A DNA stretch of 64,000 nucleotides, from contig NC_056546.1 of assembly GCF_910596095.1 (NCBI RefSeq), positions 20,798,425 through 20,862,424 on the forward strand, written 5' to 3'. This document shows, one piece after another, positions 1-42,379 of the stretch. The notes beneath the pieces are model-generated. The model ran no database searches, had not been told where the DNA came from, and saw only the letters and a program-made list of their open reading frames with translations. A program made the position numbers and the translations under genes. Each line of letters opens with the position of its first letter. Within the stretch, counting starts at the first letter, position 1. The stretch comes from Thunnus maccoyii (taxonomy: Eukaryota; Chordata; Actinopteri; Scombriformes; Scombridae).

Positions 1-1484
1 CATACCTCACCATTTTGATGATGAGATCAGATGCTAGGTTCATTCAAATCATTACGGGAAACACACAGGAAAGAGGGACAGCATCCCAACCCCCATCACT
101 GCAGACAAAACAAGAACTGGACTCTTATTTTGGATTATACCATTATTCATAATATGAGACAAAAAGAAATTTAAAAACAACATAATTTGCTCCAATCCCT
201 AATCTTAACACTTCCTGATAAAAGCGCTAAAGTGAAGTGTGAAGTGTGACTGCTTTATATACTGTAAGTGCTTTTGACAGTGTTACACAACTAACAGTAA
301 AAGCCTTTAATGGTGGGCACAGCGCTTCTGTTGTGCACACCTGTAGGAAAGCTGAGCAGCTAACTCTGCCATCCTCCAATAAGAGCCTGCACTTTGCTGC
401 TGATATTTTTATAAAAGTATTCAGTCCTCCAAGGTCTGAATTAAGCAGAGCTTTGAAATGAAAAAATGACTTATATAAATCATTGATTCCTACATTACAT
501 ACAACACATACACACACAAATTCACTCCATCCCTCTTCTCCATTTCTCCCCCGGTCCTTGCTCCCCCGTGCAGAAGTGTGTCTAAGATATAAATAAAACA
601 TAGCAAAGTGGAGCACTCTTGCTCTGTCTCTAACTCTCTCTCTCTCATCCGCTGATATTCCTTAGTGATCTTCCTCCACCCCCGCACGACGTGTTCTATT
701 TCAACATCGTCACCAGCTCCTGCTCCCAGAGCGGCAGTCGCGTCCTCCTTCACACAGAACAAAACATCACCCCACCAGCCTCCCAGCGGCCCCTACTGTA
801 CTCATTGCCTGATTCTGGTTCCCACAGGCTCCTCTGAAGCACTATTATGTTTGAGCCATACATACTGTACTGTCGTCTAGGCACAGTGATACACATGTAC
901 TCTATGCATGTGGCTGCTCACGTGCTCCGATCCCCCTCATCCTTATTTACATCACAAAAACAAACAACAACAATGGTGACGCGCTGAGTTGGTTGCACTG
1001 GAGTATTTGAAAAGGCTTTAAGGCAATATACAAGGAATGATAGAATAAGAAAAAACAAAAATGCGTCAAAAATATAACAGAGGGAGGAAACAGAAGACAA
1101 CATCTCATAGTGTTGCTCACCAGGCTTAATCCAACAACAATAAATGACATCAAAAATGGCCAGCAATAAATTTACCAATAATATAACTCACAGGTGATTG
1201 CAATGTGCATAATAAAATCATCCTACCCTCAGGCTGAACATTTCTGTTGCACAGAAAGCCAATTCAAAGCCATGAATAAATAAAAATATACATATGACAT
1301 CAAAGCAGAAGCAGTTGGAGCAACTCCCCAGTCCTCCAGCTTTTAAATAAAGCATCTCCGAGGGTATTGTGAAGATCTTTAGTAGCATTCTCTTCTTTTT
1401 CATGCTTTTTTTAAATTGGGGATCACATATCTGAACATTTCCAGACAGATTATTAAGCAGGAAGTCACGTTATGTCAAACTCAC
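1..1484 (-). other. tacc2 intron sequence downstream of the short-isoform first exon
   Basis: No coding exon is supported. A C/T-rich block on the plus strand (600-780) reads purine-rich on the minus strand with a GC-richer core at 665-745. It could be another first exon, but no donor in the needed phase is clear. The rest is AT-rich intron. Confidence 0.5.
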
Positions 1485-1543
1485 ATGTGTTCTTGAGAGG
1501 GACAGGGGGTCTGTCCTTGCTCCATGGACTCGTTGGCTCCCAT
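1485..1543 (-). CDS. tacc2: tacc2 alternative first coding exon, short isoform (MGANES...)
   Basis: The reading is ATG GGA GCC AAC GAG TCC, giving MGANESMEQGQTPCPSQEH and then AT before a GTGAGT donor. It ends in phase 2, the phase shared by every other late tacc2 junction. It is 5.6 kb downstream of the proline-rich exon, so it can only be the start of a shorter transcript. Human TACC2 short isoforms also begin with a Met-Gly exon of about this length whose last codon is a split ATG. Met-Gly with Ser6 fits the N-myristoylation consensus. The upstream sequence looks like a long leader. Confidence 0.6.
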
Positions 1544-2110
1544 CCTCAGCTACCTCTGCCCCCCCTGCACCCCCTGCCTGCTCCTGCTCCCCAGCCACCC
1601 GCCACATCCACCTGCCCCCCGCCACCCCAAAACCCCTTCTCCTTTCGCTGTTATCCTTCCAATGAGGCAGCCTGTGTCAGAGGAGGTGAGCACCAGCTGA
1701 GCTTACTGTGCTGCAGTGCAGAGGATGAGCGAGTCCTGCTTGCATCAGGAGCGAAGCAGTGGATGATTAAGGGTTCCTCACTTTATGCACAGCATCCCTG
1801 ATCCTGTGCTCCAGTACAGACCGTGAATATTCCTGTTTTCTCATCTGGTGGTTGCAGGTAAAATGATGCAACACCAGGAGGAATCAAATCTTGAAGAGCA
1901 AAACGTAAAGGATAGAATAATCCAAAACGAATAGGATGAAATAATAATCCTGCTTCCTTGCCGTCTTGCATGTGTGTGTGTGAGGTGCCTCTTCTCTGTT
2001 TGGTTGCTGATATCGCTGAGCTGTGTTGCTGCTCGCACTGCCTCCTCCCCCCTCTCTCCTCCACTCTCTCCCCTCACACCAGCTTCCTGTGCCTTTAAAA
2101 AGACAAGCAG
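1544..2110 (-). promoter_or_regulatory. probable leader and promoter of the short tacc2 transcript
   Basis: Reading the minus strand, a TTTAAA box within CTTTTTAAAGG (about 2093-2100) is followed by a purine-rich run of GGGGAGAG/GGAGGAG (2045-2080). About 500 bases of non-coding, non-repetitive sequence then lead up to the MGANES start codon. The leader contains a possible internal donor near 1707 and a G-rich stretch at 1560-1640 (runs of four to six G on the minus strand). The layout matches an internal promoter; the transcription start itself is inferred. Confidence 0.4.
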
Positions 2111-5100
2111 CTTTTTCTAGTCTGCTACCGCGACTATGCAGGAGCCAAACAATAGGACCCCCTAAACCACACTGATTAACAGGACCTTTCTCTTTCACCC
2201 TTTTTTCTCCCTTCCACAGTAACCATACCTCTCGACTTTGTCTTTCTCCTACCAGGACCCCCCTCTTTCACCCTGTGAGATGTATGGTGAAAATGTAATT
2301 TTTTGTGCCTCCTTTATACACAATGGAAGCTTCCAGCACTCAGCGTGGCCAACCAGAGTGATGCCTGAGGTAAACAATAGACTCTGAGAAACTAGTATGT
2401 GTTATTCAACTCCGACCCTATTATATTCTCTTTCATTCAAGCCCCTCCATCAGTAATTCTGTCCCAGCACGCATACACGGAACAGGCATAACAAGACAAA
2501 AAAGGACAAAAATTAAACTTTTAAAATATCATATCCTATTAAAACCTTTTCTTTCAGCATCCACTAACAAGGAAAGCAAGAAACAACCACAAAAAACACA
2601 ACTGTAAAATTAAGGATATCTCTTTCTTATTTTTACTACCAAAGCTTAATCCAGAGGTGTCACTCTTTGCTAAAGAGACAAGGACATACACTTCCAGGCA
2701 TATACGCTTTTCTAAATGAATACTGTCTCTGTGTTGACTCCCTGGGCAGCAGACTGGGTCGGTGATCTAATTTACCGGCACTCTCGACAAACCTTATAAT
2801 GATATTCTGTCTAGCCGTGTCTTTCCAATTTGTCTTTTTTAGACATCTGTGTGTGACAGACGCAGAGAATGTGTCCTGTGGGATAGAAATAAGATCAGGA
2901 ACAGGTTCTACAAAGTTCCCGGATCGATTGTCAAGAAGAAATGGGAAAGAGGGGCTTCTGAAACACAAGGAGAATAAATCCATTGTACGCTCATGGGAAA
3001 GTGAGGAAACGAGGGCTCGCTACAATAGCAACTACAGCCTGTAGCACTTGTAGTCACAAAAACTTGCCCTACGAGAGTTTCAGGTGTCGACCCTCTGATT
3101 ATGTGGACTAAAAAGACAACAATGAAATGGGCAATCTCCAGTTCCACTACACAGCATGGAGCACAAAGGCCGGCGCTCATGTCTGATCCAACATCACATT
3201 TGAAAAGGGGAGTGTTTGCATGTAAACCCAAACCCATTAATTGATGTTCACATGGAATATCGATGTGTTTCTAGCCTCGGATGGGCCCGTTGGTCGATGT
3301 TTCACAGCCAGAGGGGACAAGTAAAAATGCTGCCCACTCACAAATCCCCACATAGACCCTGCTAAAGCATAAATATTGATTCCTTTCCATCCAGACGCCC
3401 ATACCAGTTCAAAAATAGATCTAGGGCAGCAAAGCATATGTGTGATGTACAAGTTCCTATTCTATTGAATATGTAACATAAGTCTGGTCTGGCACTTCAG
3501 CTTCATCTGTAGACTGAAGGAAATGAAGAAATAAAAAATTCAACAAACTCAGGCACTGGAAGATATTGCTGTGGCAGTTTTTTTCTGAAAGATTCATAAC
3601 TGCGCTCAAGAGGAATCAGGGTCACTACGAACTACACTTACCACTTGCTACTTGAGAATGTAATATGAATGCTTCTAAGCAGACTGTGTTGGAACAGAAC
3701 AATGCATTGGTGGAAAGGTTGACAGAAACCTTTTTAAACTTAAAAACATGGCAGTAGATAAAATATAACCTCTGTGTACCAGTGAAATGAGTTTCAGCTG
3801 CGAAAATTTTGATTTCAGATGGTCATTTTTAGAAGCTTGTTGTTAGTTACAGATTTATCAAAGCTCTGTCTAACTTTACTTGCAAATACTTAGTGGGCTC
3901 AAGTTAAACAACTGGTCCAAACAATATGTTCCTTAATTTGGCACAGAAAAACCCCCAGAAAGACTTAAGAAAACTTAAACAACCATAATCAGGAAAAAAT
4001 GTAGCAAAGCTCAGGGAGGACTACAAAAGAGGGGACCAGCAGCAAATAATAAGTGTTGACTGAGTGAGGGATAACAAAATACCAAATAAAAGTTTAAAAC
4101 AGTATGTAGATAGAAAGAGTTTGTGATGAGATCATAGATCAAGATGTAATAGATGTCTATAAGTCCTGACATGAAGAACTGAACTGAAAATATGGTTCAA
4201 TCTGTGTGTGTCAAAATTATTATATATAGAATATAGACTTTGCAGTAAAATGCAAAAATGCCATATTAGTCAAACATGACTGTACCTTTAAATTTATAGG
4301 ACAGATTTTTGTTTTGTGTAAAAGGCTCAAATACGCTATCAGACGGAGATATGAAAACACACTTTTATGTGTTATCAAACTGAATCAAGCAGCTCCGCAG
4401 GTGACAAGCAGTACAAAAGTGTGTTTTGGGGAATCCTGGCTTCAGATATCTATGATAGGATCCTGGGTGCCCCTCTGATCTTCCTGCTGAACAGCTGCTG
4501 GAGAGCAAGGGGTTTTTGAAAAAGTTGCATTAATTCCATAAACAATCCCTCCTGGGATCGATTTCCTGAGGCTGTGTCTACCAAAACATCCACTCTCAGA
4601 CTTGATCTGTCTGTATTTACAGCATGTCTCATTACATAGTATTTTTGAAATAATGTGGCGTTCCTTCTCTTTGTTTAATCAAAGTAAATGACAAAAGCAA
4701 TCAGTGGAGTAATCACAGCACTTCAATGGGAAACCTCAAAAAGAAAGATAAAGCAAAACAAAGGTCTTGATACCCATACACCCATGATCTCAATCACATA
4801 CATGTGTGACTTCATAAGATAAGTGAGATGAATACATTTTTCACAAAACCAGGTAAATGAGGAGTGTTAGCTGTTAAAAACTGCAGCTTGTACATATAGA
4901 GAAAAGAAGAGAGAGGAGAGAAAAGTGTAATTATTCTCATCACAAAGAAGGTAGTAAGTGGGAGGAACTGAAAGATTTGGGGGTTTTCAAGGGAAACAAG
5001 AAAAACATAGGGACCAAGGTACTCATCACTGCTACAGAGTGTCTTCATGACAGAAAGCCTGTGTAAAACGTGTGGGAGTCACTGACAGATTTATCATTTT

Positions 5101-7114
5101 AAATTAATTAATTTAAGTAGGAAGCCTGCTTTGATTTTTCTCACAGAAAGTGTTAATTATTACTCATACAAAATCTCAATGAATCATTCAGGAAAAAGCA
5201 CTTAATACATGTTTGTTTTTGAATGACTAAAATCGTGATTATCATATGCTGAAGGAAAACAATTTTTTTTTTTTAAAATTTGTGAGGACATACGTTGAAG
5301 CCGTAGCATTGCCAATCATTTGCCCACCTTAAGTGCCTTTGAGCAATACAATAAATGTCTAGTAGCCCGGAGGGAGTTGCTCATTCCCTACAAGGATTGA
5401 AAAACCATCACAGTATTAAAAGTGAAGACTGTATGTTTTAGTGCTCTTTCAATTGCATATGACCTTCATACTTCAACTAATGTATTAGATTAAAGATATA
5501 GTTTATACCTGCATGTATGTTGCCATAGTGTATGTATAAATGTTCACAATCTGTGACGTCCAATCAGAATATTCTGTCCATGTTACTCTGTTACTCTGTT
5601 GGTCTCCTCTCCACTGCTCCACCCTCTCAGATATCATAAATAATATAACAATACTATACTAATCTAGCCCTCTCAAAATTCTGGTCTTCTCTGAGCAAGG
5701 GAGGTGTTCTGAGAGCCAAATAGTCATTAGCTATGAGCACACATGCATAATTACACACAAAAAATATGTCAGACATTTTAGACAATTTAACACTGATATA
5801 TCGTGAGATACATGCCTCCCCATGTTACATTCATATGCCAGGTATCACTAGCATTCAGACAGCAGGTGTCTGCAGCATTCAGACAGCAGAGTGCAGACAC
5901 AGGCTGGTAGAATAAGATGAATGCTCAGCTCTGTAAAGGGAAGCCACCCTCTGCTGGTTGTAAATAACACTGCACTTAAAAAGTGGCTGAGTCATTCCCT
6001 CTTAAAAAGTGTATGAAATACATTATAAAGTCAAGAGGGGGAATGCTTAGTATTATCTGCGGGAAACCGTGCTGATAACAAGATAATGAGCAGGAATTAA
6101 ATGCAATCAGTGTTATGAATGAAAATCATTGTGTTGTGAGCTGAAACAGTGGCTCTGTGTCATGACCGGAGTGCTACACACGCAGCTTTAATGGCAAGAA
6201 ATCAGCCGTAATACGTCAAGATGGGGAAGATTGTGTGAAAAAGTGTAGTGTGTACTTGATCCTGTAATGTTTAAAAGACCCATTTATGAACATTTCACCC
6301 TTATGCTTTTGCTATATCCACCATTAAAAAGCCACAATTACACAGCACATACATTTGTTTCCATAACCACTAAGTTCATACATTGGCAAATCTTGTTTCC
6401 TATTAGTTCATGTGGTAGACGTACATAGCAATGATAAAATGTAATCTTATGAGTGGGGTGACAAGACGGGTTGCTGACATAACAGACAAGACAATTGCTC
6501 TGTATTTATATATGTATTTATATTATATATATTTAGAAATTGGCAATCAGGGTGTCCTGGGGGTTTAATGGGCTAACCACAAAATCCCTGGTCTGAATCT
6601 GACCGGGGATGTTTTGTTGCATGTCATACCCCATTTTCTTTCTACTGTCAACTCTAATGAAGGCATAAAATGTTGACAAAAATACATAATGCTGTATGTT
6701 ATCCATGTCTATATGGTGAGAACTGTCCAGAAAGAAAGAGGGCTGATATTTTTCAGTTATATTTTAATGTCTTAAGTTATACAAAGAAAATGTAAGTTTC
6801 TCTCTATGTTCAGGAGCTTGAAAAATCAACATCTCCGAGGCAATTTAGTGTGCCAGACGTCGATTTAATGCTCTAAACTTGGGTTAAAAGGATAAGGGCA
6901 TGGCTACTTTTCATCAAGCAGGCTAAAGGGACTAGTGTCAGAGCTGGACAAATCTACTGTAAGGTCTTAAAATGAGTGGAGAAGAGGCATGAAAGGAAAC
7001 TCAGAGCAATTGCAACATTTTTAAACACAAACAAATGACATGCCATTAATTCATACTGAACATAGCAGTGAAAAGGGTAATGACCACATGAGTGAGCAAA
7101 GTTCGTGTTCATAC
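2111..7114 (-). other. tacc2 intron between proline-rich exon and further exons
   Basis: About 5 kb of AT-rich sequence with no convincing exon on either strand. The minus-strand open frames here (2660-2983, 2908-3237, 4450-4632, 4812-5048) lack matching splice sites in phase 2. The one recognisable item is a SINE relic near 6.55 kb. I see no sequence resembling the conserved downstream TACC2 exons, which presumably lie beyond the left edge. Confidence 0.6.
6545..6690 (+). mobile_element. degenerate teleost tRNA-derived SINE
   Basis: The order of elements is a degraded tRNA-like head (GGTGTCCTGGGGGTTTAATG ... GGTCTGAATCTGACC in place of box B) followed by TTGTTGCATGTCATACCCC. The latter is close to the TTTGCTGCATGTCATTCCCC core of a very common fish SINE tail domain. 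After it come a CT-rich stretch, CTACTGTCA and AAGGCATAAAATG. Several mismatches show an old inactive copy. Confidence 0.6.
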
Positions 7115-7414
7115 CTTGGAGGAGGGTGACAGGGTGCAGAGGCAGGGCAGGGGTCCTCACTCTGGTGAGCAGAAGGTGCAGGAGGGGAGGCAGGGGCTGG
7201 GGGAGGAGGAGGAGGAGGAGGAAGGCAGGGGGATGCAGGTGGGGTTGGTAGAGCTTCAGGAGATTGCCTCTCTGGGGGTGTGGGAGGAGGTGTGGGGAAC
7301 TCTGCAGTATCACTGAGGTGTGGAAGGAGGGCAGGCGGGAGGTGGGGTCCAGGGGAAGTAGGGGGGGAGGCAGGGGCACGGTCACGTTTCTCTGCCTGTT
7401 CAGTGAGGGAGGGC
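7115..7414 (-). CDS. tacc2: tacc2 proline-rich coding exon (100 codons)
   Basis: The exon runs from a CCCTCCCCTGCAG acceptor to an AAG/GTATGA donor, 300 bp, phase 2 at both ends. It encodes RPSLTEQAEKRDRAPASPPT followed by a strongly proline-rich stretch containing eight consecutive prolines and repeated TPP/SPP motifs. These are candidate SH3/WW/profilin ligands and proline-directed kinase sites. Mammalian TACC2 has a polyproline segment close to the junction where its short isoforms begin, which supports the assignment. A GGA microsatellite on the plus strand (about 7201-7223) encodes part of the proline run and may vary in length. Confidence 0.75.
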
Positions 7415-10400
7415 CTGCAGGGGAGGGAACACAAAACATCAACAGACAGACCGAAACAAGACGGCCAAGTACGGTGATTTGGAAAGCCCTCTGAGGACAC
7501 ATTCCATTTTCTTCTATACAAACGAAGCGTGAAGGAAACTTACCTCAAAGCAGAGAAAGATGAAGCACTCTGCTCTGTGCCTTCACCTAAACCTAGTAGT
7601 GACTTGAAAAATAAAAAGCTCACTCCAACCATCCTAAGAATGATTTTTTATTTAAGTTGTGCAAAACTGAAAATGTAACTCTTCTCATCAGTCCCTTTAC
7701 ATGATGGTCCATGTTTTGACTTGCCCTCTGTAGTGAAGTAGCCTGTCTGAGGGTGTCTGGCTCTGTCATCATTGGCCACCTGGTGGAGTGGATTTGGCCC
7801 TGATCCAGACGGGTCTTATCAGGAGCGTGGTAGGCTCTCTAATCTGACAGGCAATGCAATGGACGCCCATGCAGCTGTTCCCCACTTGGGGCATGCCTCC
7901 TGTTTAGCTCTAAAAATACTCCAGTAGCCTCCTCTACAGAATAGAGCTTCACAATACCTCCATCAGCTAAAGCACATTTAAAAGTACCAAGCCAACTGTC
8001 TGCTAGGCTGTCTGCACTTTCCACACGTCCCTTCCAGCTCGTTTCAGACTGAAAACTCAGCTCTGTTATTCTCCATCTCACTCTCCAGTAAAGTCAGAAC
8101 TTAATAACATTTAATGAGGGCGTGTGCTTTTCTTGAGGGCGCAGCAAGTTACAGTTTACATCTAACACAGGTCTGGTTCCTATCGTTAGTCATTAAAAAA
8201 TATTTTTAAAAATCCTACAATTACATTCATGAATTTTTATTTGGTCCCATTCCTCTCATTACAAATCCCGAATTAGTGACTTACACCAGCAGTCCAAAGC
8301 TATACATATGTCAGCATCTGTGGCTAACTTGGCACATGCAGTCTGGAAATAGAAACAACTAAGTCACAACATAGTCTGAGCAAACTGTCATAAGAGCCAC
8401 TGCTGCCTCCAAAGATGGACAAAAACGGAGATGGAGCAGATAGAAAAATAAATCAAGCTAACAGACTGGGAAATAAGATTACACTGGATACTGGGAAGGT
8501 GCGGCATATTTACTGGTGTAGTGCCTCTTACATGGAGATAATGTCAACTGACCTGCTCAGGTTTACAGCTGCTTTCCAACTTGGCACTGCTTTTAGATAT
8601 GATGTGTATAAGGCTTTATTGTCATGACAAGATGATTGCAACAAGTTAGAGAGAGCACATGTGCTCTTTTTCAGCAGCGCACTTCTTCACGTCAACATAG
8701 TTTAACTGTTGGCATCAACGACTGGAGGCTGTCCAAGAGAGTTTTTTATTGTTGGTCGTTGAGCAATGTGCCGCGTGTTAGTCGAGGGCGCCTCTTGAAC
8801 ACTTCTTAAGAGGAGAATGCTAATTTTCCGTGGCCAATCCAGGAGAACCCTGATTTTTTAACCTCAGTTGACTGACTGAGTAGTAAGTCAAGCCATACAA
8901 ACACACACACACAGTACACTGTCATCTACGGGAAACAGCTGGATGTGAAAAACAGAATGTCCAGACAGTGTGTTTAATGATAAACAGAGAGCAGTAAATA
9001 AAACCAGCTGACGGTACTGAGAAAAGTGGTTTTTAAATGCCGCAATGATGGGAGGATCATTTCTTTCCTGCAGCCAGCAGCTAGCTCATACTTGTACTGC
9101 ACATTAACACACTGTATACTGTATATATTACACACACAGTCATCATTATTAATCCATTAATTCTCTTATGTCACCCGGTGATTAAAACATGATTTAAAAC
9201 CTATAGTATACAGGCTTTATAAATGACAGACTTCCACTACACTTGTGTCGGCAAAGGCATGAACCTACAATTGCCATGGCAACTAGTCTATTTACAGTAC
9301 AATGCCGGCTCTGGATGAGGAATATCCTACATATTAAGCTACAGTCACATTCATTCCCACAGTGTTTTCAAAAGTGAATTGGCTTCATTAAGGATTTTTT
9401 GTTCAAATTAGCTGTGTACCATTTTCAAAACTATATTTTTCACCACACTTTTATGCCATATGTCATACAGAAAAAGTTAGTGAGAGGACCTTTATGATTC
9501 CCAAATGAATGTATTAACTTGACATCCTACTTTTAAAAGTCAACCATGCCAACAGGATTTCTTGGAAAACTCACAGACAGCAGGTAAGTTTTACTAGTAC
9601 TGAGGCGTCAATAAGACAGACTCTACGTCAAACAGGGAGCAACAAAACATGCTCTAACCTGTAACATATTTTACTGCACAACATGTTTCATTTCGAAACT
9701 TTGTTCCTTCTTTTCCACCTTCTGTCCCTGCGTCTTTCTATTTGTCCCTCCCCTCCACCCATCTGGTGAGGTCAGCAGAGGCAGAGCGTAATTAGCACTA
9801 GTTACCTACAGACCATCTGCCGCATCCACCTGGAGGGATTTAAACACAAACACACTGACACAAACACACACACAAAATAAAAACAGGGCAGCTACTTCTT
9901 ATCAACTCACCCAGATGTCCACAATAGAGTTATCCATCACACAACTTCAAAGCTGACTAAGTGATGGAAATGGCTTCTGTTCAGCTCCTGATGCACTCCA
10001 AAACACCGGAGTCACTAAAATGTAAGTCCCAGTTCTTCTCCCTTGTCTCCTCTCCTCTCACTGTGACTTTGACTGACTCGGTCACACACACTCACAACGC
10101 AGCACATGCTCAAGTTTTTCCCTGAACTCTGGCTTTTGTTCCACTCTGTCTGGTCTGTGCAAATGACTTCAGTGGGGCTGAGTGCCTGCCCAAATTCCTC
10201 CCACTACAGGCTTCACGGCTTCAGTTCACAAAGCCGCACAGACTGAGCAGGACTGACAGCTAGGACAGCCTCTGGGGGGCGGGGAAAGAACCGCATGTAC
10301 ACACATATCACCAACCATGCAGTCACATTTCTGTCTCTCCTATATGTATGCAAGTGTAACTTTATCTATTGATGAAACCTAAAGTGGAAATAGCACTGTC

Positions 10401-13400
10401 ACTCTTCTTCTCTCTTACTCTGAACAAACCTTTATGTCTCCAACAGCAGTGATGAGTCACATGTTGTGACTGACAGGCAGCAAGTGCTACTCTGGCATGT
10501 CAGATGGCTCCTGGGCTTGCAGCAAACGACGGGAGTGAATTAGGGGAGAGTGACAAATAAGACAGATAACTGAGGAAGCTGAGAAATGCTAAAGCTAAGT
10601 GAAATTAAATCAGTAGTGATTATTTAATGTAATTAAAACAGCCCAAAAGACCTTCATCACACTGTAAATAATATGGCAACACATTGTGCTTTTGCACAAT
10701 GACCTCTCAAGTGACATGACGTTCTTCAGTAAAAGAATGACATAAATGGAAAGTGAGTCTAGCTAGAGCTGTTAAATATGCTAAAATAAATACTGAATGC
10801 CCGCATGGAAACACAAGGAGGTCAAAGTGAACGGCACACTGGTTTATTATGTATATTTAACTCAACATAAAGGGTTCACTGCCATTACATCAACCAGTAC
10901 AAATCTGTCAGACTCCTTCTCATTCATCCAATGAGACACTGTTAAACCGCTGCAGACAGCAACAGCGTACCAGACGCCCTCGAGGTGTCTGGAAGCCAAA
11001 CAAAGCTACCAAAGGGACTCTTCAAGCACATGGAAATCCATTTCAAAAGTGTGACAAGCAGGGCAGAGTGTGCTGCTGAGCTGTAAAGCACATGTCCCCT
11101 TGAGATTCCCTTTTTACAAATAATATTCCCCCAAATTGCTCTGACAGGTCATTGTGACAGTAAGTTTTAGGAAAACTATCAGTTCTAAAAGGTTATATAA
11201 AAATCATTCTGTCTGATTTCCTGCAAACCAGTCAACACAAGGTTACCAGTCTCCTTTTAATGGTGAGAGGCTATAATCCTTAGATTTCAATCAATTAGGG
11301 ATTACAAGGACATGTTTTGTTTTTTTAATCCAGTTTCTGACCGAGCTCTGAAAGAGAACAGTGTCTTGGCAGCAGCCTTATAGGGAAACATTACTCCAAA
11401 GTTTATCCACTCAGTTAAAGTAGGCTTTCACTGGAAACTGTAGACAACAATTCATAACACGGACCAGGTGACACTGACAATAACAAATGATCTGGCATGT
11501 ACATTATAAGCAGCAAAAGTATTGGGACAATGAGTGGAGGTCGGTCTTGTTTGCTGTTGCCAGTATTTCAACACACAGATCATAGTCATGACAACAAAAA
11601 AATTTAAAACAGATTTTCCAATCCCACTCTCTAAACACTCGAGGTAGATGACTAACTTTCAAAAAGATACTCACCCACTGTCCTGTAGTTCTTCAGCAGG
11701 ATCCTGGACTGATTCAGCCGCTGCAGTTTCCGCAGTTGGCACCCTAAATGGCTCTTCAGGTGGGCACTCTAGAGGTTTTTCAACTCCCTCCTCTGGTGGC
11801 TCACTGATCGGCTTCTTCTCTGGTTCTAGGTGCTCTGCTGTCTGCTTTGTTGGTTCAGTTACCTCCTCTTCAATTTTTGTTGGTTCAGGGAATTCTTCTT
11901 CATTCTTGGTTGGTGCGACGACCTCTTCTGTGTTTTTGGCTGTTTCTAGGAGCTCAGTTGGGTGTTCCTCAATCACCAGATCCTTTTTTGGTTCTGGAAG
12001 CTCCTCTGGGAGATGATCTTCTTTCTTGGTTGGTTCTGAGAGCTCGACTTTCTTTGCTACTTCTGGGAGCTCTACTGTTGTCTTCTTTGTCGGTTCGTAG
12101 AGCTCTTCTGTCTGTTTTGTGGGTTCAGGGAGATCCACTGGCTTCTTCACAAGATCTAGAGGTGGGACATCTGTTGTCTCCTCTACTGCTTGCTCGGACT
12201 GCGGGATCTCTTCCTGTCTCAGAGGAGCAGCTATCTCCTCAGTTGGAGTTAGAAACTCTAGTTGAGGAGACTCCAGAGATGGGAGGGGTCTGAGAAAACA
12301 ATACAAGAGAAGAGGGTGTTGGGGGTTGTTGTTTAGTTTACAGCACATGCACAAGGAATGACTGACAAATGACAAATGTGTTTGTTTGTGCAAATACAGA
12401 AGCTTATACCCCTACAAGAGGGCATGAGTGTGTGTGCAGAAGTACTGGAGATATGTGTGTGTGTGTGTGTGTTTCTGTTGTTGTTTTTGTTGTTGTTGCA
12501 TTGTGTTGAGCAGTGTGTATTGTGTGAGAAAAGGCTCATTCGTGCCCTGGAGAGTAGAGACGATGTCACAGCTGATGTCACCCTTTGAATATAAAGGACT
12601 GCATTACTTCCATTAGACTTCAACAGGCAAAGTCATCTGACCCAAGCTCAAGTCAATACAAAGTAAAGCTCTGTGTTTACCTCCTCATTCATATTCATTG
12701 TCACACTGCTCTCTGTAATAACACTCCAAACAAGAGTTGGAGTTACTGGAATGTTAAACTGAAAAAAAGTAGAAATCCTATGAATACTAAAAAACTGGTA
12801 AATAGGTTGAACATCACAGATTTACAACCCATGGAAATATCAATATAAATAAAGATTTTCATCTACCTAATTCATAATTCATTAGTTATGGTTCTGACTG
12901 TCCTGACACTTTCATGAAAATGTTGCAAGAAAACCCACAACAGACTACACTTCTGCCTTTCTTTCTGTGATGTACTTGAGCAGATGATATGTGACAGCAT
13001 GCTAACATGTGACGTTGTGTAACACATCAAAGAAGGGACCCATGATGACCTCCACTAACCCTTTAGACACATGCAATGACCAAGTTGATGGCATTTATTT
13101 GCAATCAACATGATTTTATCAGCATGAAGTCCCGTGTGCGCTCCTCTTATCTGCAAATCTTAAGGCATTTCCCCTTATATAATAAAAACCCATGAACACA
13201 TTTCAAATGCACACATGCTCTACTGTTTACCTTGATGTCGCCACTGTGCTCTCGAGTTCAGCCTGAGAGGCAGCATCTCTTAGGGCTTTTATCCAGTTTG
13301 TTTCTGGTTCTTGGGCTTTTAGTTCAGGAGCAGGACTCTTTGACACTTGGGCAGCCTCTGCCTTCACAGACACTTGTTCAACGGGAGAGATGCATGTGTC

Positions 13401-16400: not shown

Positions 16401-19400
16401 TTGCTTTGGCACCTTTGCTGACACCTCTTCAACTGTTACATGGTCAGAGATGGCACTTCCATCACATTTTGTGGTTTGAAGAGGGTCAAAACGTTCCTCA
16501 TCAACAGTCTGACTCTTCTCTGTAGGACTTGGAAGTGGTTTTGAGCAGGCCTCTGTCACTGGTTGTAAATCCACTGTGTCTGTCTCTGAGTTGTCTTTAC
16601 CTGACTGATCTCTTGCTATGTTCAAGGTCTCCTTAGTCCCAATATCTCCTTTATCCAATTGAACATCTTTCTGTGGCTTTTGTAAGTCAGTTGAGCTCTG
16701 TATTGCTGGTTTATCCTTGGTAGGAGCTGCCTCTATGGGGATTTCTGGCTTCTTCGAGCTGAGAAAATCTTTGAAAATAAAGCAGGCCTCAACAACAGGA
16801 TAGTGCAAATTCTCATGTACCGTCAGCGGAGGCAAAGAGGCGCACTCCAAAGCCGACACCGACATGTTCTTGAGATCCACAGAGGAACTGCCCTCTTGTT
16901 TCACAGAGTCCGCAAAGTGAACTCTGTTGTTGCCTCCACTGTTGTTATATACATACATACCCACTCCAGACATATCAGGGCTACCACTATTGATCTGGGT
17001 CTGGGCTTGTACTTCAGCTGCACTCTCGGCTGTCTTGGCTTCTGTTGTGCTACTTTCAGGTCGGACCTGTTGATTGTTGCTTGCTTGTCGCTCGACTGTG
17101 ATTTGTTGTGAAGTAGTCAAAGGCTGAGGTGAAATTAAAGGCAGGAAGACTTGGCTGTAGTTTCGCTCTGTCTCTGTGATGGATGACTCCTCACAAGTGC
17201 GTCCAGAAGATAGTGCTTCCTCTGAAATCAGATGTGGTTTGGTATCGGCTTCTCCGTCTATATTGCAGGAGCTTTGTTCAGGGTGAGTGGGGAGAGGTGA
17301 AATAGCTGCTGCAAGCTGCTCCTGGCAGGGGTGAGAGAGACGGTCCTGTTCAGTACAGATGCTCTCAGTGATGGTAGCGATCGGCTCACCCCAGCTCTGT
17401 GACTTCAGCTGTGACTCGGCAACATCGGTGGGCGGACACGTCTCAGTCTCAGCTGATGACACCCCACAAGCAGAGCCTTCTGGCTGGCTGAATGAACTGT
17501 GCTCTTTAGCCAGCCCTCCTTTCTCTTCCACCTCCTCTCCTCCTCCTCCTCCCTCTCCTGCTCCCTCCAATCCCGCAGCACTGTGATCCTGACAATCAGC
17601 ACCAGTAAGCAGCCCAAGGGGAGAAGTATTCAAATAGGCTTCTAACCAGAGTCCCTCCTTTTCTCTGTCTCCCTCTTCAGCTGGGAAGATCTCTGTGTCT
17701 GTGTCTGCACTGCGAACGGTTGATTCTGTCGGTCCCTTCGTTTTACTCTCAGCTGAGTTGTTTGGCATTTTGCTGCTGCAGCTTTTCTCAGATGCAGCCT
17801 GTCCCTCTTTTGCTGAGAATGCAAGTGAGCATTTTCCCTGTGAACAGACTAAAGAGAGCTGAGGAAGGCTGCCCAGGAGTCGTCCTCTCTCTCCGTCTGC
17901 AGTGCTGAGGCACTTTCCTATTCCTCCCGAATCTTTCTCTCCTACTGCTTTTTCTCTCTCTGCTATTGCTACAGTAGCTACTCTCTCCAGTGAATCACGC
18001 CTCACGCTTTCTCCCTCTCCCTTGCTTTCTATCACTTCTGGCATCGTGGGTGTTGTCAGTGGCAACGCAGCAACCACCACTAAAGCCTCTTCAAGGGCAC
18101 TCTCCGCGCTACTCTCTCCCACACAAGTTCGGCTGTTGGAGAGTGGGCTCCAACTCTCCAGTGTGTGTATCTCTGCTTCTGAGGTAACTATAGCCTCCTG
18201 TGTTTGTGCATCTGATCTCTTATCAGCAGAAGCAGCTGGATTGATAACTGTAGTTTGGACATATGTCATGGTTGTATTTTGGTTGTTGATGACATCTCCG
18301 GTTGCATGTTGCTCACTCTGTGGGCTTGCATCTGAGCTGTGATTCATGCCACATGGGGCATCTGTATGGTTGTGGTTATCTGACTGATGAGGCCCCTGTG
18401 AAAGTGCATGGATTGACGCAGGTGAACAGGCCAAGTCAGTAAGATGATCCTGCTCTATATGAGAGGATGATAGTGGGGGGCTGGAGCTGGGGTTTCCCCC
18501 GAGACTCAGCTGTTGCTTGTAATCAAACCCATTATCAAGCTGTTCCGCACACATCACAGTCTCAGTGTCTGCCTCTGACACTGATTCTGCATTTGCCTCT
18601 GTGTTATTTCCTGCATTCATAAGTGGCATAGCCTGTAAATCATTTTCAGCTTGTGCTGCTGTCGCTTTCTGTTCAATCTCTGAGCTCTTCTCCATCTTTT
18701 TCTTTTTCCTTTGTTTCTTTTTATCTTTCTTCTTTGCCTTTTTGTCCTTCCTGGCCTCGGCCTGTTTATCTGCTTCTGTCTGTTTTTCTAACTGCATCTC
18801 TGGAACTGCATCTTTATCCCTAAAATGAAGATTACTGCTCTCTGATGTTTCATTAACTGAATCATCTTTCTTTTTACTTTCAACCATATCAGTGTTGATA
18901 CTGGACTCATCACTTTGGTTTTCTTTCTTTATGTCTGCAGTCTCTGTTATTGCCTCTATGTCTTTCTCCCTAGTCACTGCATTACAATCTGGAGGGCCTT
19001 TTTCCTCAATAACTGCATTAGAATCATCACTTATATCATCTTTCTTTTTACTTTCAATCATGTTAGTGTTGATACTAGACTCATCACTTTGATTTTCTTT
19101 CTTTATGTTTGCAGTCTCTGTTATTGCCTCGATGTCTTTCTCCCTAGTCACTGCATTACAATCTGGAGGGCCTTTTTCCTCAATGACTGCATTAGAATCA
19201 TCCCTTATATCATCTTTCTTTTTATTTTCAACCATATAAGTGTTGATACTGGACTCATCACTTTGATTTTCTTTCTTTACGTCTGCAGTCTCTGTTATTG
19301 CCTCAATGTCTTTCTCCCTAGTCACTGCATTACAATCTGGAGGGCCTTTTTCCTCAACAACTGCATTAGAATCATCGCTTATATCATCTTTCTTTTTACT

Positions 19401-22400
19401 TTCAATCATGTTAGTGTTGATACTAGACTCATCACTTTGATTTTCTTTCTTTATGTTTGCAGTCTCTGTTATTGCCTCAATGTCTTTCTCCCTAGTCACT
19501 GCATTACAATCTGGAGGGCCTTTTTCCTCAATGACTGCATTAGAATCATCCCTTATATCATCTTTCTTTTTACTTTCAACCATATAAGTGTTGATACTGG
19601 ACTCATCACTTTGATTTTCTTTCTTTATGTCTGCAGTCTCTGTTATTGCCTCGATGTCTTTCTCCCTAGTCACTGCATTACAATCTGGAGGGCCTTTTTC
19701 CTCAATAACTGCATTAGAATCATCCCTTATATCATCTTTCTTTTTATTTTTAACCACATAAGCGTTGATACTGGACTCATCACTTTGATTTTCTTTCTTT
19801 ACGTCTGCAGTCTCTGTTATTGCCTCGATGTCTTTCTCCCTAGTCACTGCATTACAATCTGGAGTGCCTTTTTCCTCAATAACTGCATTAGAATCATCAC
19901 TTATATCATCTTTCTTTTTATTTTCAACCACATAAGTGTTGATACTGGACTCATCACTTTGATTTTCTTTCTTTACGTCTGCAGTCTCTGTTATTGCCTC
20001 GATGTCTTTCTCCCTAGTCACTGCATTACAATCTGGAGTGCCTTTTTCCTCAATAACTGCATTAGAATCATCGCTTATATCATCTTTCTTTTTACTTTCA
20101 ACCACATAAGTGTTGATACTAGACTCATCACTTTGATTTTCTTTCTTTACGTCTGCAGTCTCTGTTATTGCCTCGATGTCTTTCTCCCTAGTCACTGCAT
20201 TACAATCTGGAGGGCCTTTTTCCTCAATGACTGCATTAGAATCATCGCTTATATCATCTTTCTTTTTACTTTCAATCATGTTAGTGTTGATACTAGACTC
20301 ATCACTTTGATTTTCTTTCTTTATGTTTGCAGTCTCTGTTATTGCCTCGATGTCTTTCTCCCTAGTCACTGCATTACAATCTGGAGGGCCTTTTTCCTCA
20401 ACAACTGCATTAGAATCATCGCTTATATCATCTTTCTTTTTATTTTCAACCATATAAGTGTTGATACTAGACTCATCACTTTGATTTTCTTTCTTTACGT
20501 CTGCAGTCTCTGTTATTGCCTCGATGTCTTTCTCCCTAGTCACTGCATTACAATCTGGAGGGCCTTTTTCCTCAATGACTGCATTAGAATCATCGCTTAT
20601 ATCATCTTTCTTTTTACTTTCAATCATGTTAGTGTTGATACTAGACTCATCACTTTGATTTTCTTTCTTTATGTTTGCAGTCTCTGTTATTGCCTCGATG
20701 TCTTTCTCCCTAGTCACTGCATTACAATCTGGAGGGCCTTTTTCCTCAACAACTGCATTAGAATCATCGCTTATATCATCTTTCTTTTTATTTTCAACCA
20801 TATAAGTGTTGATACTAGACTCATCACTTTGATTTTCTTTCTTTACGTCTGCAGTCTCTGTTATTGCCTCGATGTCTTTCTCCCTAGTCACTGCATTACA
20901 ATCTGGAGGGCCTTTTTCCTCAATGACTGCATTAGAATCGTCCCTTATATCATCTTTCTTTTTACTTTCAATCATGTTAGTGTTGATACTAGACTCATCA
21001 CTTTGAATTTCTTTCTTTACGTCTGCAGTCTCTGTTATTGCCTCGATGTCTTTCTCCCTAGTCACTGCATTACAATCTGGAGGGCCTTTTTCCTCAATAA
21101 CTGCATTAGAATCATCACTTATATCATCTTTCTTTTTATTTTCAACCACATAAGTGTTGATACTAGACTCATCACTTTGATTTTCTTTCTTTACGTCTGC
21201 AGTCTCTGTTATTGCCTCGATGTCTTTCTCCCTAGTCACTGCATTACAATCTGGAGGGCCTTTTTCCTCAATTACTGCATTAGAATCATCCCTTATATCA
21301 TCTTTCTTTTTATTTTCAACCATATAAGTGTTGATACTGGACTCATCACTTTGATTTTCTTTCTTTATGTCTGCAGTCTCTGTTATTGCCTCGATGTCTT
21401 TCTCCCTAGTCACTGCATTACAATCTGGAGGGCCTTTTTCCTCAATAACTGCATTACAATCATCGCTTATATCATCTTTCTTTTTATTTTCAACCATATA
21501 AGTGTTGATACTGGACTCATCACTTTGATTTTCTTTCTTTACGTCTGCAGTCTCTGTTATTGCCTCGATATCTTTCTCCCTAGTCACTGCATTACAATCT
21601 GGAGGGCCTTTTTCCTCAATTACTGCATTAGAATCTTCCCTTATATCATCTTTCTTTTTACTTTCAATCATGTTAGTGTTGATACTGGACTCATCACTTT
21701 GAATTTCTTTCTTTATGTTTGCAGTCTCTGTTATTGCCGCGATGTCTTTCTCCCTAGTCACTGCATTACAATCTGGAGGGCCTTTTTCCTCAATAACTGC
21801 ATTAGAATCATCACTTCTATCATCTTTCTTTTTATTTTCAACCATATAAGTGTTGATACTGGACTTATCACTTTGATTTTCTTTCTTTACGTCTGCAGTC
21901 TCTGTTATTGCCTCAGTGTCTTTCTCCCTGATCACTGCATTACAATCTGGAGTGCCTTTTTCCTCAATTACTGCATTAGAATTATCCATTATATCATCTT
22001 TCTGCTTACTGAACACAGTATCTTTTGGGGTTTCTTTAAATGAATCTGTATTCGTTGTCATTTCTAAATGTGTATGCTCATCTTTGTCTGTTTCTTCTTC
22101 TGGTTTAATCTCTGGACATTTTTCCTGGCTCTGTGTTGTTTTTATTTTACTCTCCGTCTCTGCAGCCCCGTCACTATTCTCAGTACCCAGTATGTAATTC
22201 CTGAAACTAAACACAACTGTATCCATCTCACTGTTTGCTGCCTCACTGTTTCCGTGTGTACACTTGTTTCCATGGCCCCTGTTGCTATGTCCTGGCTGGA
22301 CTACGATTGGAGGCAGTGACGATGACTCACTGGGCTTATTAACCATCGCTTCTCCAGTTTTCTCCTCTTTTTCATTAACCGTTTCAGACATGGTGCTCAA

Positions 22401-30700: not shown

Positions 30701-33700
30701 CTGTGTAGCAGTTAACGCAGGAACACTCACATTGTTAGAGCCATAGCTTAAATGTCTAATATTTATCTTAACCTCTGCTTTACAACAGTTAACCACTACA
30801 TAGTCCAAGGAGTGTTATCTAAAATAGCTTATTAGACAAGCCTCAATTAAGCATGGAAATACACATAAAGCTCCATGGACATCCTATGTGTTTTACTGAA
30901 GCCAGCAGTTAGTAATCATGCAAGTAAGTGTTGTTAGTTGTTAGTCCTCCGTGCATGAAAGAGTTCGAGGTATGTAACAGCACGGGGGGCAGCAAGTATA
31001 GCAATCCCAGCCATCCAATGCCAGCAAGCTTGCCCTTACCAATACCTCAGTTGTGCTGTTCTCGTTCCCCATGGCTCATCCGGCTGCAGGGCGACAACTG
31101 CCCAAACCAACAGCCTCTCACATCAGCTGGCTGAAAGACACCACAGCACAGAAGGACCATCAGCGTACAACCACAAAGTGTGCAGGGGAGCTGTGGTCCC
31201 TCAGTGGAGGATTAGAGGTCTGTGGTATGAGGTTGAACTAGTAGAGAGAGAGAGAATAGTAAGTGTGTATGTTATTTTAGAGATTAGGGGCTTGTGATGC
31301 AAGACCTCCCTCTGGGACCAAAGTACAGGCTTTACCTCAGTAGATGAGGGCTTAAAAGCAGAAGAAAAAGAATATTCAATGATACAAAAACTATCATGTG
31401 ATTTAATATTTTAGAAGTCCGGCGTATTGGAGAAACTCAACAATTTAGCACTGATGAGTTGCAGTAAATCTGGTCTCTGGTAAAATCTCTGCTCTCAATG
31501 ACCTCAAACAAATGGCATCACTACCCAGAATAAAAGCATCTTTATATTTAAAAGACTACATATGCACATTGTCACTTTATCCATGTGGATGTGATGTGAT
31601 AGCTTACTGACACAGTGACTGATGCTGGGTAATCCCGTAAAGTAATCCTCATGTGGTAAATAACAGATTGTGGTGTCTCTCTGCTTCCAGCACTGTTCAG
31701 TCTGTTAGCGAACACTAGGTCCGGTTATTATACAATTCATATAAATAATCCTGTTTGACATCACTATATACAATACTGTATATTGTAGTAAGATAATGAA
31801 AGATCAATATGTGGAAAGAAATTAACACTTGAAATATTTCAAGAGAAGGGCAGCAAAATTCAACTATAAACTGGTTTTAAAGCCACTCTCAGAAGTGTAC
31901 CAGATACTTTCTTTACTCTCACATCAACATTTCCTCATTGTATACAGTATATTGTTACTCAGCTGTAAACACTCATGTCACAGAGAGGCTGCTTGTGCAT
32001 TCCTCATATAACTGCAGGGACTGTACGGTAGCTCTGTTTAGTCAGAAAGCACTGACCCGAATATGCAAGACTTTATAAATAGAGATCTGCTGTGTCCACT
32101 GCTGTTAGACTTTATTCCAGTCTTGTGCACAATTTGTCATTCACACTAGATTTCCAAACAAATGTAGAACCTATATATTCCAGTTACGTCTGCACTATGT
32201 GAAATGTTAATTCCATTTTTGTTCCACACTGATTAAATTGTGAGCATGAGAAAATGAATATCTGTATTTCCCCTTACATCTTAATTCTTATGTGTTCTGT
32301 GGCGTGGCAACTCTTCCCCCATGGCTGCCTACTTGCTATTTGTGTGAATGGGGTGTAATTTCAGCCTCCGCAGTGTGGACGCGTGTGCACTTTAACTGGC
32401 AGCAGTGTTTCAGGGCTTTTTGGCAGCACAGAAAGCAATGGGTCAAATCATATGATTAGACTATTGCCAGGTCTCTTTTCACTTTATCAGTTGCCTGTCC
32501 ATCACTCAGCATCAGCCATCTTTTAAGCTCTTGGGTTTGGATGAGCACAACATGTCTCCGCTTAGACACCCGCAGTATGAGGTTACTGTTTCCTGCCCTG
32601 TGCGTGACCCCTCCACTGGCACAAAAACACAGCAACCACCAAAGTAAACAGAACATGTATTTCTAATATAATCTCTAATATAACAGAATAAAGTGTTTCT
32701 AAGATAATATACATAATAAAATTCAGCATGGTGGCTGTGATTTGATGCATGTTTATCCACCTGGCCAACACAAATATAGTAAATACACGAAAATATTCAT
32801 ACAGCATCAAATGAGATATTGATAAAAGCAAAACACAGTCACACAAATTTCCATCCAAGCTTAAACAACCCATCCTTTACCATTTTCCCCACCAAATTCA
32901 TATATTCATATATATTATATTTTTTACAGTCTATGATTGAAACTAAAGAAACTACAGAAAACCAAAACCGCACCAGTGCTACAGTTCATTATCTACTCAC
33001 CACTGCAAACAAGAGATTTTTTCCAAACACAGTGTCTGCTCTGAAGCTTTTAACAAACCCTTCCAGTCTGTGTTTACTGTCAGACTCAAGGCCAATATTT
33101 GTGTCTGTCCTCTCCTCTGAGGAGCCCCGGTCTCGTCTCTCTGTTGCTATTTTTTGCATCACACGGTAGAGTGGGTGGAGAGGACTGAGGGGCGAAAGGG
33201 GGGCTGATAGGTGGGTGGTTGAGGTGGACACGGGACAGGAGGAGGAGAAGTGGGGACAGGGCCGAGGGGAAGGGAGGGAGGGAGGGACACTGAACTTGAG
33301 CTGGGGAAGCCATGTCTGCTCAGGGTGGTGGTGGTAGTGGGAGGGGTGGTGGGTGGGGGTGGGGGGGGTCACCTGCTCTGACAGGCACAGGAGGTCTGGC
33401 AGTCAGCTGGAGGGGACACTAGTTCTGAGGCAACAGATGTAAACAAATGGGCATACGGGAGGACGAGGTGTCCGACCTCCTGGCTCCCTGGTGGATCAAG
33501 TAGAAGGCTGCAGATGCTGTTAGAATATTCACCCCACCTGTAGCTTTCCTTTAAAATACCTAAAGCTACTACATTTATTTATCATCTTCATCCTGCTGAC
33601 CTGTCCTCTGTGTCTCTAGATTTAATAGTGATTGACATTTAAGGACAACAGTGAAACACACTTACACACCACAAGCCTGCTGTAACAAAGCAGTGCACGT

Positions 33701-35924: not shown

Positions 35925-36182
35925 TTTATTATTCAAATATCTAAAACAGTAAAAATAAAAACAAAATGTGCAATTGAGAACCATGACCTTAAGTCACAAT
36001 GATACAGTTTTACAAATGTGACCTACACTGGAACTTTGCAAACTTCGAACAATTTGTCTTTATTATTTCAAAATTTTTTTAAAAAACAAACAAAAACAAA
36101 ACAACAACTACAACAACAACAACAACAGTAACACACCTAAAAACAATTTTCACTTTCAGCTAACAAAATATTGTGCGGTCCA
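35925..36182 (-). terminator. nsmce4a 3' UTR and polyadenylation signal
   Basis: The minus-strand AATAAA at 35925-35930 lies 253 bases after the nsmce4a stop. The UTR holds a CAA repeat (36090-36127 on the plus strand) and T-rich tracts. No better signal is closer to the stop codon. Confidence 0.55.
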
Positions 36183-39100
36183 TCACTCATTTTGTGTGTT
36201 TGGAGGCAGAATAATTGTGTCTCTGATGTCGAAGGCATCTATGAGCTCCTAGGAAAGAAAAAACAACAATCACAACCAGAGACATAAACAAGAATTTTTA
36301 TAGGAGGTTTTGGTATTGCTGCTAGATTAAATCTTCTATGTTCAGGCTGTGACTTGCTAACCTTCCAGGTCTTTGGGCTGATAGAGACAATGCACTGTTT
36401 CCTGCTGCATGATCCTTCAGTTTGCACCTCCCCCTCCTCTACAGGAGCTGAAACACAAACACACACATCAGTAAAATAATTTACCAAAAAGCATTTTCAT
36501 TGTTATTCCCCTCTCCAAATAATACAGATAAATGTTAGTTGTATCTCCTTACCTATACAAGGCAACTCGGCTGAATCCAGATACATCCGTGCCAAACCAT
36601 CCTGAAACACAACACAACATTGTAGCACATCCTGACGGTCACTAGAGGGCAGACAAGCTTCAATTTACACACTTCAACTATCCTCAATACACATGACTCA
36701 CTCTGATGAGAAAAGACGTGTGGAAAATGTTCTCTACTGTCCGGGAAAATGAGTTGGGGTCAATGACAAACTCATAATACGATATTGGTGATGTAGCTGT
36801 GATAGAAACAGAGAGAGATTAGCAAATACACAAATTTACACAACAATGAAATGTTAATGTCCTTGTGGTCAAATTAAAACTCACGATCATCTTGGTAATA
36901 ACTCTTCAGGTATCCCAGGATCCTTTCAACTTCCTTCTCTGTCGCCTCTTGATGAGACTCTTCCATTTTCTTTAGCTGACAGACAAATGTAACAAGACGC
37001 AGTGAGTATCTGGGATATTAAAACCTTCTCAATCCGAACATACAGTGCATATTATATAAATTATGTCAACTTAAAAAAGGAAAACAGTTACATACTTTGA
37101 AAATAAACCTACTGTTGCTGCCTATTATTAGAAATTAACCATCAGCTTCATTTAAAAAACCCACAATTTGGGTAATACTCATAACTGGCTGCAAAGTCAC
37201 AATCACATGTAGATAACTGGGAGCCATGGAGGTGTAAGTTTAGCTACCTGAGTGGGCATTATCCTTTTGGCTTCCTTGCTGGGTGCTTTGCTTTGCCGTT
37301 CTGTCCTTTGCTTTGGAGGAGGCGGCTCTGCATGGAACGAACCCATCCTGATAAAAGGAATCACAGGAGTTATAAAATATTATAAATGTCAGAGCCAGAT
37401 AAAACACCGGCACAGGCAACACATACAGTTTATCAACTGCTGAGTGACCGCAATAGGTCGGCTTACTGTGTGCTTCCTTTTATGACATTTCAATTGTAGA
37501 ATTTATCAGTACATTTTTCATGATTGTGCCTTTTCAGTCATAACTGTAACGATGCGGCACTCACATGTAGTGGAAGGAGGGTGCTGTCCTGAAGCAGCAC
37601 GCTGCTCTCTGGGCCACTCTGTGCCAGGCGTCCTGGGGCAAGTAGCCATCAACTGCACCTCCGTTCTGTTGCTCACTCTCTCCGTTTTCTAGTCGGTTGA
37701 GACCCATGAAAGACAACTGCAAGGGAAGCAGAGAGAATCTCCACATGATTTCTGTGATTAAACAAACATCTGTATTCTGATGATTCTACACTGTGTTAAA
37801 TATTGTTATAGGGCTGGGCGATATCATCTAAAATCAATATCATGATTAATTGTCACATTTACCTCGGTAATGATTAATCAAGTGATATTTTATTAAATAC
37901 GCCTCACAGTGGAGCCCTTTTTAGTCATTTGTAATGAAAAATAAATAGAAAAGCCTGGATTATGACTTAGTTATATTTATTTACTATATTCAGTAGTTAA
38001 GAACACTTTCAGGTATTTGTTTCCTAAAACAGGAAATTCAAAGTAAAATATGGCTTTGTTTAACATTCCTGCGAATGTCAAAACATGTAATGAAAATAGA
38101 TTTGAATAAGCCTTTTATGACTTCTACTATCTCACTAACCTTATTAGCCGGAAGTTTTTAGAGTGACATTATTTTCTGACACACTGTAGCTCATACTGAA
38201 CCTTGTCTGTTAAATTTACAGTTGAATGCTAACGTTCAGCTCACCTGCCTGCTTGTCCTGAGCGCAGCCTCACCACGTCTCTTTCTCTCCTGCTCACTCG
38301 CCTCACCCAGTCTGCACCGAACGCTCCCAAAGAAGCTGCGCTACTCCACTCTTTTCTGACTTTATTTCCATTTACCTTCATTTGTCATGTATTGTGCTTA
38401 ATGAAGCCAAAAGTGTACCCATATGACTGACAAAACTTTTTTTTTCTCTGTACCAGCTTTTTCTCATCTGCACCCGCCCCCAGCTGAATTTCTCCAACAC
38501 TTGAGTTGTTTTTGTCTTCACTAGACACGCTTGGTTTATTACATCAATTTGAACTGCAGGTGGACATTCTACATATGGGAATGAATTCATCGAACATATT
38601 GATATGACTTAAATTAGGTCTGTTAGAGTCATTATGTTAGTTTTGGTTGTATTTCAATTAATTGCCCAGCCCTAACGCCTGGGACACACTGCCTGCGTGA
38701 GCAGCGCGTGTGCGTCACAGAACCTCTTGCTTTTCATTTTGGCGCCCATGTTAACAAGTTGGAGCAGCCACACAGCCAGCGTGAGACGTGGCTGCTGCGT
38801 CGCGTCATCTAGAGATTCAAGGTCTCGCCTATTTTTTCCGCGTGACGCGCACGGTTCTCAGCAGATACAGACAGGGAAAACGATAGAAAGACAGGGCTGC
38901 CAGTAGCAGCGCAGCAGAAGCACCGCAGCAGACACACTGCCTGTGTAGATGGTGCAAGCGTGCGAGACACAGCAGTTCAGCGACGCACACGCGCTGCTCA
39001 CGCATCCTGTGTGTCCCAGGTGTAACTGTCCCTAGTTAAAGCTGAAAGGCACAGTAATCTGACATCATGATATGCAACTACAGACTGTCTGTGACTTTAG

Positions 39101-41357: not shown

Positions 41358-41372
41358 TTTTGAGTCTGTCTG

Positions 41373-41454
41373 CTGTGAGGGGGAAGCAAGTTGACGCAAA
41401 GCAGGTTCAAATAAACAAAGTATGTTTCTGTTTGTGGTTGATATAGCTGTTTAC
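41373..41454 (-). other. predicted 82-bp intron in the nsmce4a 5' UTR
   Basis: On the minus strand AGTAG/GTAAAC (donor at 41454) and TTCCCCCTCACAG (acceptor ending 41373) frame a short intron 15 bases upstream of the ATG. If used, the leader exon starts somewhere around 41.46-42.1 kb. Confidence 0.5.
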
Positions 41455-42180
41455 CTACTTTCTGACAACAATTCCGGAAGAAAGAGGAGGGAGTCTGACC
41501 CTGCCGAGTTGTTTAGCGTGCGGCGTGTAAACCTGACGTCGCCGGTTTTCTTAAATTTAGCCAAAGACGTTAGAAAAGTCAAGATAAAATTACGCAACTC
41601 TAGCACGTTTGTAAGGCAGATCAAAAGCAACGTGTTGGATTAAATACACGTTGCATAACGCAGTGTGAGAAACATACTCCTTGGACCTACTGTTTTCGTA
41701 TTGCACACATGCAATATCAGAACAAACGATGAGCACCGTTACTACTAGAAACAGTAACACGAATAACTGTTAAGCGTTATCTGTTCTTCAACATTAACGT
41801 TAAATATAAAAGAAGCGTAGCCTTGACGTTACAGCGAGCGGACTAACGCGGAACATCACATCACCAACGTTAAGTTAGCAAAGAAAAGTATCAACTATCA
41901 CCCCACTGGACGACTGTCAGCCTAACCAGAACCAGATATCTGACGGCGGCTAATACAAACACGGAAGTACACAACAGTTTGCCATCTCGTTTCCGTCGTC
42001 TGCGTCTGAGTTAACGTTAGCCGATGTTAGCTAAATCCGTTGTATTAGCAACTTAGCTACACGTAAATACTGTCCACTCTCCTGCTTTTTACAAAGTTCA
42101 TGCTGGAAGTGAAGTTGTAATTGCTCTGATTTGTGCTCAACTCGATATAATGTTTCTCCTTTGGTTAACTTTAACGTACC
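41455..42180 (-). promoter_or_regulatory. nsmce4a leader and promoter region
   Basis: The area directly upstream of the predicted 5'-UTR exon is richer in CpG than the flanks (41480-42010), with repeated AACGTTA / GTTAGC motifs. No TATA box is evident, which suits a housekeeping-type promoter. The exact start is not visible. Confidence 0.4.
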
Positions 42181-42307: not shown

Positions 42308-42308
42308 G

Positions 42309-42379
<71 letters not shown>

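Follow-up and report, generated by a model that had tools for sequence, protein, structure and literature searches.

A large in-frame tandem repeat, probably a recently grown coding minisatellite, in the long internal exon of tacc2 in Thunnus maccoyii

Our analysis of a 64,000-nucleotide stretch of the Thunnus maccoyii genome (the window; assembly GCF_910596095.1, contig NC_056546.1, C14:20798425-20862424 in our contig numbering) reveals an array of 18 in-frame 174-bp units that occupies one third of a 9,304-bp internal exon of the centrosomal gene tacc2. We consider it probable that this array is a coding minisatellite that has grown recently, is homogenised by exchange between its units and sits in a tolerant, disordered spacer of the protein. 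In the mechanism we propose, a minisatellite would have grown recently inside the long disordered exon, and unequal exchange and conversion of misaligned units would add, remove and copy whole units, with the frame left intact, since 174 is divisible by three. Exchange would proceed partly in two-unit steps, so that the interior copies are kept alike and the edge copies drift. The charged, leucine-free product of 1,044 residues would lengthen a flexible tether from the N-terminal part of Tacc2 to its microtubule-linked TACC coiled coil; the exon would tolerate growth of the array, the exact unit sequence would matter little, and the copy number would be expected to vary among individuals.

Tandem Repeats Finder (TRF) returned one dominant tandem array in the window (18861-22010; 18.1 copies of period 174 at 95% matches and 0% indels; score 5586), and cutting the minus strand from 22004 to 18873 into 174-base pieces yields exactly 18 in-frame units of 58 residues each, as a preliminary description made from the letters alone had read them, down to the lack of indels. 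The units are on average 95.3% identical in pairwise comparison (range 88.5-100%), with 29 variable sites. That description had also set a core of nearly identical copies against two diverged edge copies. The similarity is borne out but a single uniform core is not, as the interior consists of two unit types, with YMVEN-like and NMIES-like endings, that alternate in stretches. Divergence is clear in copy 1 (7 private variants) and only mild in copy 18 (3), compared with 0-2 private variants in each interior copy; the two edge copies hold 10 of the 18 private variants (P=5e-6).

The copy number of 18 is the value of one assembly. Inside the array 37 450-mers are repeated and no 500-mer is, which places the longest exact internal repeat at 450 bases or more and below 500, and certainty on the copy number therefore requires long reads. 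Since a short read cannot span a 450-base exact repeat, assembly could have merged or added near-identical units, and the number could in part be a product of that. We nevertheless regard this as unlikely: 54 contigs for 782 Mb suggest that the assembly was built from long reads, and distinctive variants are distributed along the whole array.

The history of the array can be read from how its units resemble one another. Among the 16 interior copies, units two positions apart are more alike than under permutation (mean 5.50 versus 7.24 differences, P=0.009), and at lags 1 and 3-7 similarity does not rise above permutation (P 0.18-0.97). No base separates copy 8 from copy 10, and a single base separates copy 15 from copy 17; in two-unit blocks, 2 of 348 bases distinguish 7-8 from 9-10, and 2 of 348 likewise distinguish 8-9 from 10-11. 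At 51 of 91 informative site pairs all four combinations of variants are present, making these pairs incompatible. Lag-2 alternation, incompatible sites and edge divergence together fit the pattern expected of unequal exchange and conversion, which would be the mechanism behind them. The preliminary proposal of recent expansion or ongoing conversion is thus supported as an appearance, through the homogenised interior, the incompatible sites and the private variants at the edges. More generally, we find the features of a homogenising coding minisatellite: a unit length that is a multiple of three, tandem and in-frame arrangement, diverged edges and recombinant site patterns. At a finer scale, the two NAVxxEK elements of each unit possibly descend from an old internal duplication of 36 bp, with 23 of 30 bases alike, a value reached by 1 in 1,000 codon shuffles. 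The case for an older 57-bp sub-repeat within the unit is weak (second-best lag; 22 of 30 bases, reached by 10 in 1,000 shuffles), and we set it aside.

Counted as events, the changes among units show no departure from neutrality. Relative to the consensus we count 34 changes, 24 non-synonymous and 10 synonymous, against a neutral expectation of 24.3% synonymous (p=0.55; omega about 0.77), and the probability of encountering no stop codon without selection is 0.43.

The 1,044 residues of the array include no L, F, W or H, are 41% charged and have a net charge of -0.12 per residue. Their mean hydropathy of 0.369, compared with 0.457 at the charge-hydropathy boundary, falls on the disordered side. 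AlphaFold2 models reached a mean predicted local distance difference test score (pLDDT) of 36.8, with no helix, for four units without an alignment, and of 44.1 for two units with a 17-row unit alignment, in which DSSP assigned nothing. The region is accordingly predicted to be disordered, and a folded repeat domain is unsupported given these low-confidence models. As the preliminary description had estimated (about 1,040 residues), the array lengthens the spacer before the TACC coiled coil, by 1,044 residues. By a scaling law for unfolded chains, the radius of the exon-encoded part would grow from about 18.5 to about 23.6 nm with the array, a modest effect on tether length. We also rejected an array of phosphorylation sites: S/T-x-x-D/E occurs 0 times in the array versus 85 times in the exon's other 2,056 residues, and S/T-P 3 versus 28 times.

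The array might serve as a multivalent platform on which some partner docks through paired NAVxxEK elements, two per unit and 36 in total. The preliminary count of about 36 proves exact, with none in the rest of the exon (2,056 residues); all 36 are intact, and the invariant columns of the unit include their N, A, V, E and K. However, variable sites do not significantly avoid the elements (P=0.41 for the largest gap and P=0.14 for gap variance). No partner or known motif emerged, with no PDB match for the unit at an expectation value (E)<=10 and no Pfam match for the frame at E<=1, and the pair may be a mere relic of the 36-bp duplication. A docking function of this kind therefore appears improbable.

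A second motif invites a bolder proposal. KENQSD occurs in 16 of the 18 units, within predicted disorder, and conforms to KENxxD, which a review gives as the KEN box targeted by the anaphase-promoting complex (APC) with Cdh1; the review also lists TACC3 among APC substrates (PMC7467358). KEN..D is matched in 1.2% of shuffled units and KEN alone in 8.5%, and the sole other KEN in the exon reads KENEPD, which also matches KENxxD. The array might then be a multivalent destruction tag, with one box per unit, whose copies raise Cdh1 avidity so that the long Tacc2 isoform is cleared fast after mitosis. Yet the motif was spotted post hoc among many possible motifs, such that the 1.2% overstates its rarity and makes it a lead, no result; the N has been lost from units 2 and 6, and nothing indicates that selection retains it; the unit differences are consistent with neutral counts; and in the review the substrate status concerns TACC3, with TACC2 itself not indicated. 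In addition, APC/C-Cdh1 substrates usually have one or a few boxes. We hold the destruction tag to be quite improbable, and very improbable its strongest form, in which about 16 tandem KENxxD boxes would act as a dosage-tunable tag, making long Tacc2 a super-avid APC/C-Cdh1 substrate whose lifetime unit exchange would tune between individuals or lineages. Were it true, evolution would set protein lifetime through unit count.

To return to the coding minisatellite, its unit is confined to this locus in the searches made. Searching its own genome with the unit as DNA gave 11 matches, and with two units as protein at E<=10 gave 12, all inside the array (in both, best candidates were scored and common words skipped), leaving a mobile or dispersed origin unsupported. 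Seeding from elsewhere in the exon is equally unsupported: a unit-profile search of the remaining exon, with filters off, found no convincing match, the best (E=0.0045) being the first ten residues of copy 1 itself, which were included in the 5' piece. When the 3' part of the long exon (1,822 aa) was used to look for a second copy, 4 candidates were scored and the single match was the query itself. The unit was searched against protein databases, as had been proposed, and neither a Pfam family (3,139-aa frame, E<=1) nor a PDB chain (two units, E<=10) was matched; among 79 pattern stretches from prokaryotes no relative was confirmed. Four unit peptides had no match in the literature, and we met no description of the array in literature on tacc2, the TACC family or protein repeats, a search that most subscription papers lay outside.

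On sequence evidence the gene carrying the array is tacc2, the identity first proposed in the preliminary description, because of its TACC_C exons, TACC2-like peptides, start exon beginning MGNENST and neighbour with Nse4-domain exons. TACC_C (PF05010) exons score above the family cut-off at C14:20780346-20781151, downstream on the same strand and about 17 kb past the window's low end, and are presumed to belong to one transcript with the long exon; in control searches of 14 genomes, 2 gave some signal and none exceeded the cut-off. Three minus-strand frames of window positions 1-13200 held no TACC_C match at E<=0.1. Between the window and the TACC_C exons lie the peptides SSDSDGAFETPESTTPVKA, KWEDPNFNPFSS and DYEIEYMEKIGSS, which resemble peptides of human TACC2. 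The array itself is part of an open frame of 3,139 codons. The MGNENST exon, upstream of the long exon, ends in phase 0 and the long exon starts in phase 1; an alternative splice site, or one or more exons not yet seen, must therefore connect them. The only PDB match of the Nse4-domain exons is EID3, a paralog of NSMCE4A; in human, NSMCE4A adjoins TACC2.

Table 1. Features of the window (positions 1-64,000) and, in the last row, of a TACC paralog locus. All lie on the minus strand.
Feature	Position	Strand	Basis
Tandem array, 18 x 174-bp (58-residue) units, in frame	18873..22004	-	TRF and cutting into units
Copy 1 (first in gene), diverged, 7 private variants	21831..22004	-	Unit comparison
Copy 18 (last in gene), mildly diverged, 3 private variants	18873..19046	-	Unit comparison
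Copies 7-11, freshest two-unit duplication	20091..20960	-	Unit and block comparison
Long internal exon, 9,304 bp, 3,100 whole stop-free codons	13231..22534	-	Splice sites by eye: ttctcacag/atgccc, catcaag/gtaaac
Later exon with degenerate 27-30-bp repeats (LPEPTKK-like), second repeat region of tacc2	11675..12289	-	TRF; boundaries by eye
Additional proline-rich exon, probably same gene	7115..7414	-	Boundaries by eye
Start codon and MGNENST... N-terminal piece	31040..31072	-	Donor after 31046 or 31040
Nse4-domain exons (NSMCE4A-like), neighbour gene upstream of tacc2	36693-36788 (about), 39692-39802 (about)	-	Domain scan
ZIP zinc transporter-like exon, farther upstream	50072-50188	-	Domain scan
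TMEM63-like exons, farther upstream	59193-61744	-	Best PDB match CSC1-like protein 2
EPVSQPAS 8-residue coding repeat, about 5 copies, in spacer exon of C3 paralog	L044:5145-5268	-	Paralog scan

On the minus strand, domain scans covered the long frame, three frames each of 1-13200 and 50001-64000, and two frames of 36001-50000. A single weak match to the bacterial domain FTSW_RODA_SPOVE (E=0.042, below its cut-off) is taken as chance. A 1,060-residue hydrophobic frame on the plus strand (18861-22043) is explained by the array having no TTA, CTA or TCA codons, and we do not regard it as an antisense gene. Separately, the MGNENST start is compatible with the N-myristoylation pattern; if it is myristoylated, long Tacc2 would be a membrane-to-microtubule tether. 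A targeted literature search on tacc2 and myristoylation returned nothing relevant.

The same genome contains at least three further TACC_C loci, on C16, C9 and C3, and the coiled coil of the C14 gene is closest to that of C3 (identity 0.69), then C9 (0.65) and C16 (0.52), from two of three coiled-coil pieces per gene. In 40-kb scans upstream of these three loci, the longest open frames had 491 (C3), 453 (C16) and 173 (C9) codons, none matching the 9.3-kb exon. The C3 paralog resembles the tacc2 array in having an in-frame tandem repeat in a TACC spacer exon, but differs in its 24-bp unit, its roughly five copies, and its exon and composition. According to one report, exon 4 of human TACC3 has two 12-residue repeats with insertion/deletion polymorphism, and mouse TACC3 complementary DNAs have a 24-residue repeat in variable number (PMC1175095). 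These too lie in frame and in tandem in an early TACC exon and vary in number (PMC1175095), although they belong to a paralog and have another unit length and fewer, shorter units. A survey of long internal exons describes these as generally repeat-rich and disordered, and its two fish species as exceptional for insertions (PMC12457776).

Beyond the TACC family, the closest parallels are the coding minisatellites of mucins and PRDM9, which share a unit that is a multiple of three, a homogenised interior and diverged edges. Mucin units bear glycosylation sites and those of PRDM9 form zinc fingers, whereas the tacc2 unit is leucine-free, charged, predicted to be disordered and matches no described domain.

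Several points weigh against a tolerated, exchange-homogenised minisatellite. The two-unit signal comes from a test of seven lags, and 0.009 x 7 = 0.06 is borderline. The disorder prediction worked from units alone. Of the three TACC paralog regions scanned, only that on C3 has a comparable repeat, with nothing comparable on C16 and C9. The ratio of non-synonymous to synonymous divergence (dN/dS) between units, a comparison the preliminary description had suggested, gave a pooled pairwise value of 0.47 (0.49 for copies 2-17), which can be read as some constraint; it falls below the omega of the event count because many copies share some of the synonymous variants. Similarly, the absence of indels over 3.1 kb goes mildly beyond the neutral expectation, lending weak support to selection on the frame, which any coding exon would lead one to expect anyway. 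Neither the event count, which is small, nor the pairwise ratio indicates strong constraint. Selection for an open frame, as first suggested, is not borne out, given 10 of 34 changes synonymous and the 0.43 chance of no stop; the pairwise dN/dS of 0.47 leaves room for mild constraint. Finally, a study of human proteins describes their repeats as mostly old and stable (PMC3995336), and a homogenising coding array this large is therefore noteworthy.

Repeat growth of this kind is known, and the present case is striking: a large, clean vertebrate coding minisatellite that makes up a third of a 9.3-kb exon and is homogenised; coding repeats are also present in some relatives of this centrosomal gene. 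If its copy number varies, the array would offer a natural length series on tether length and motif number in a disordered scaffold.

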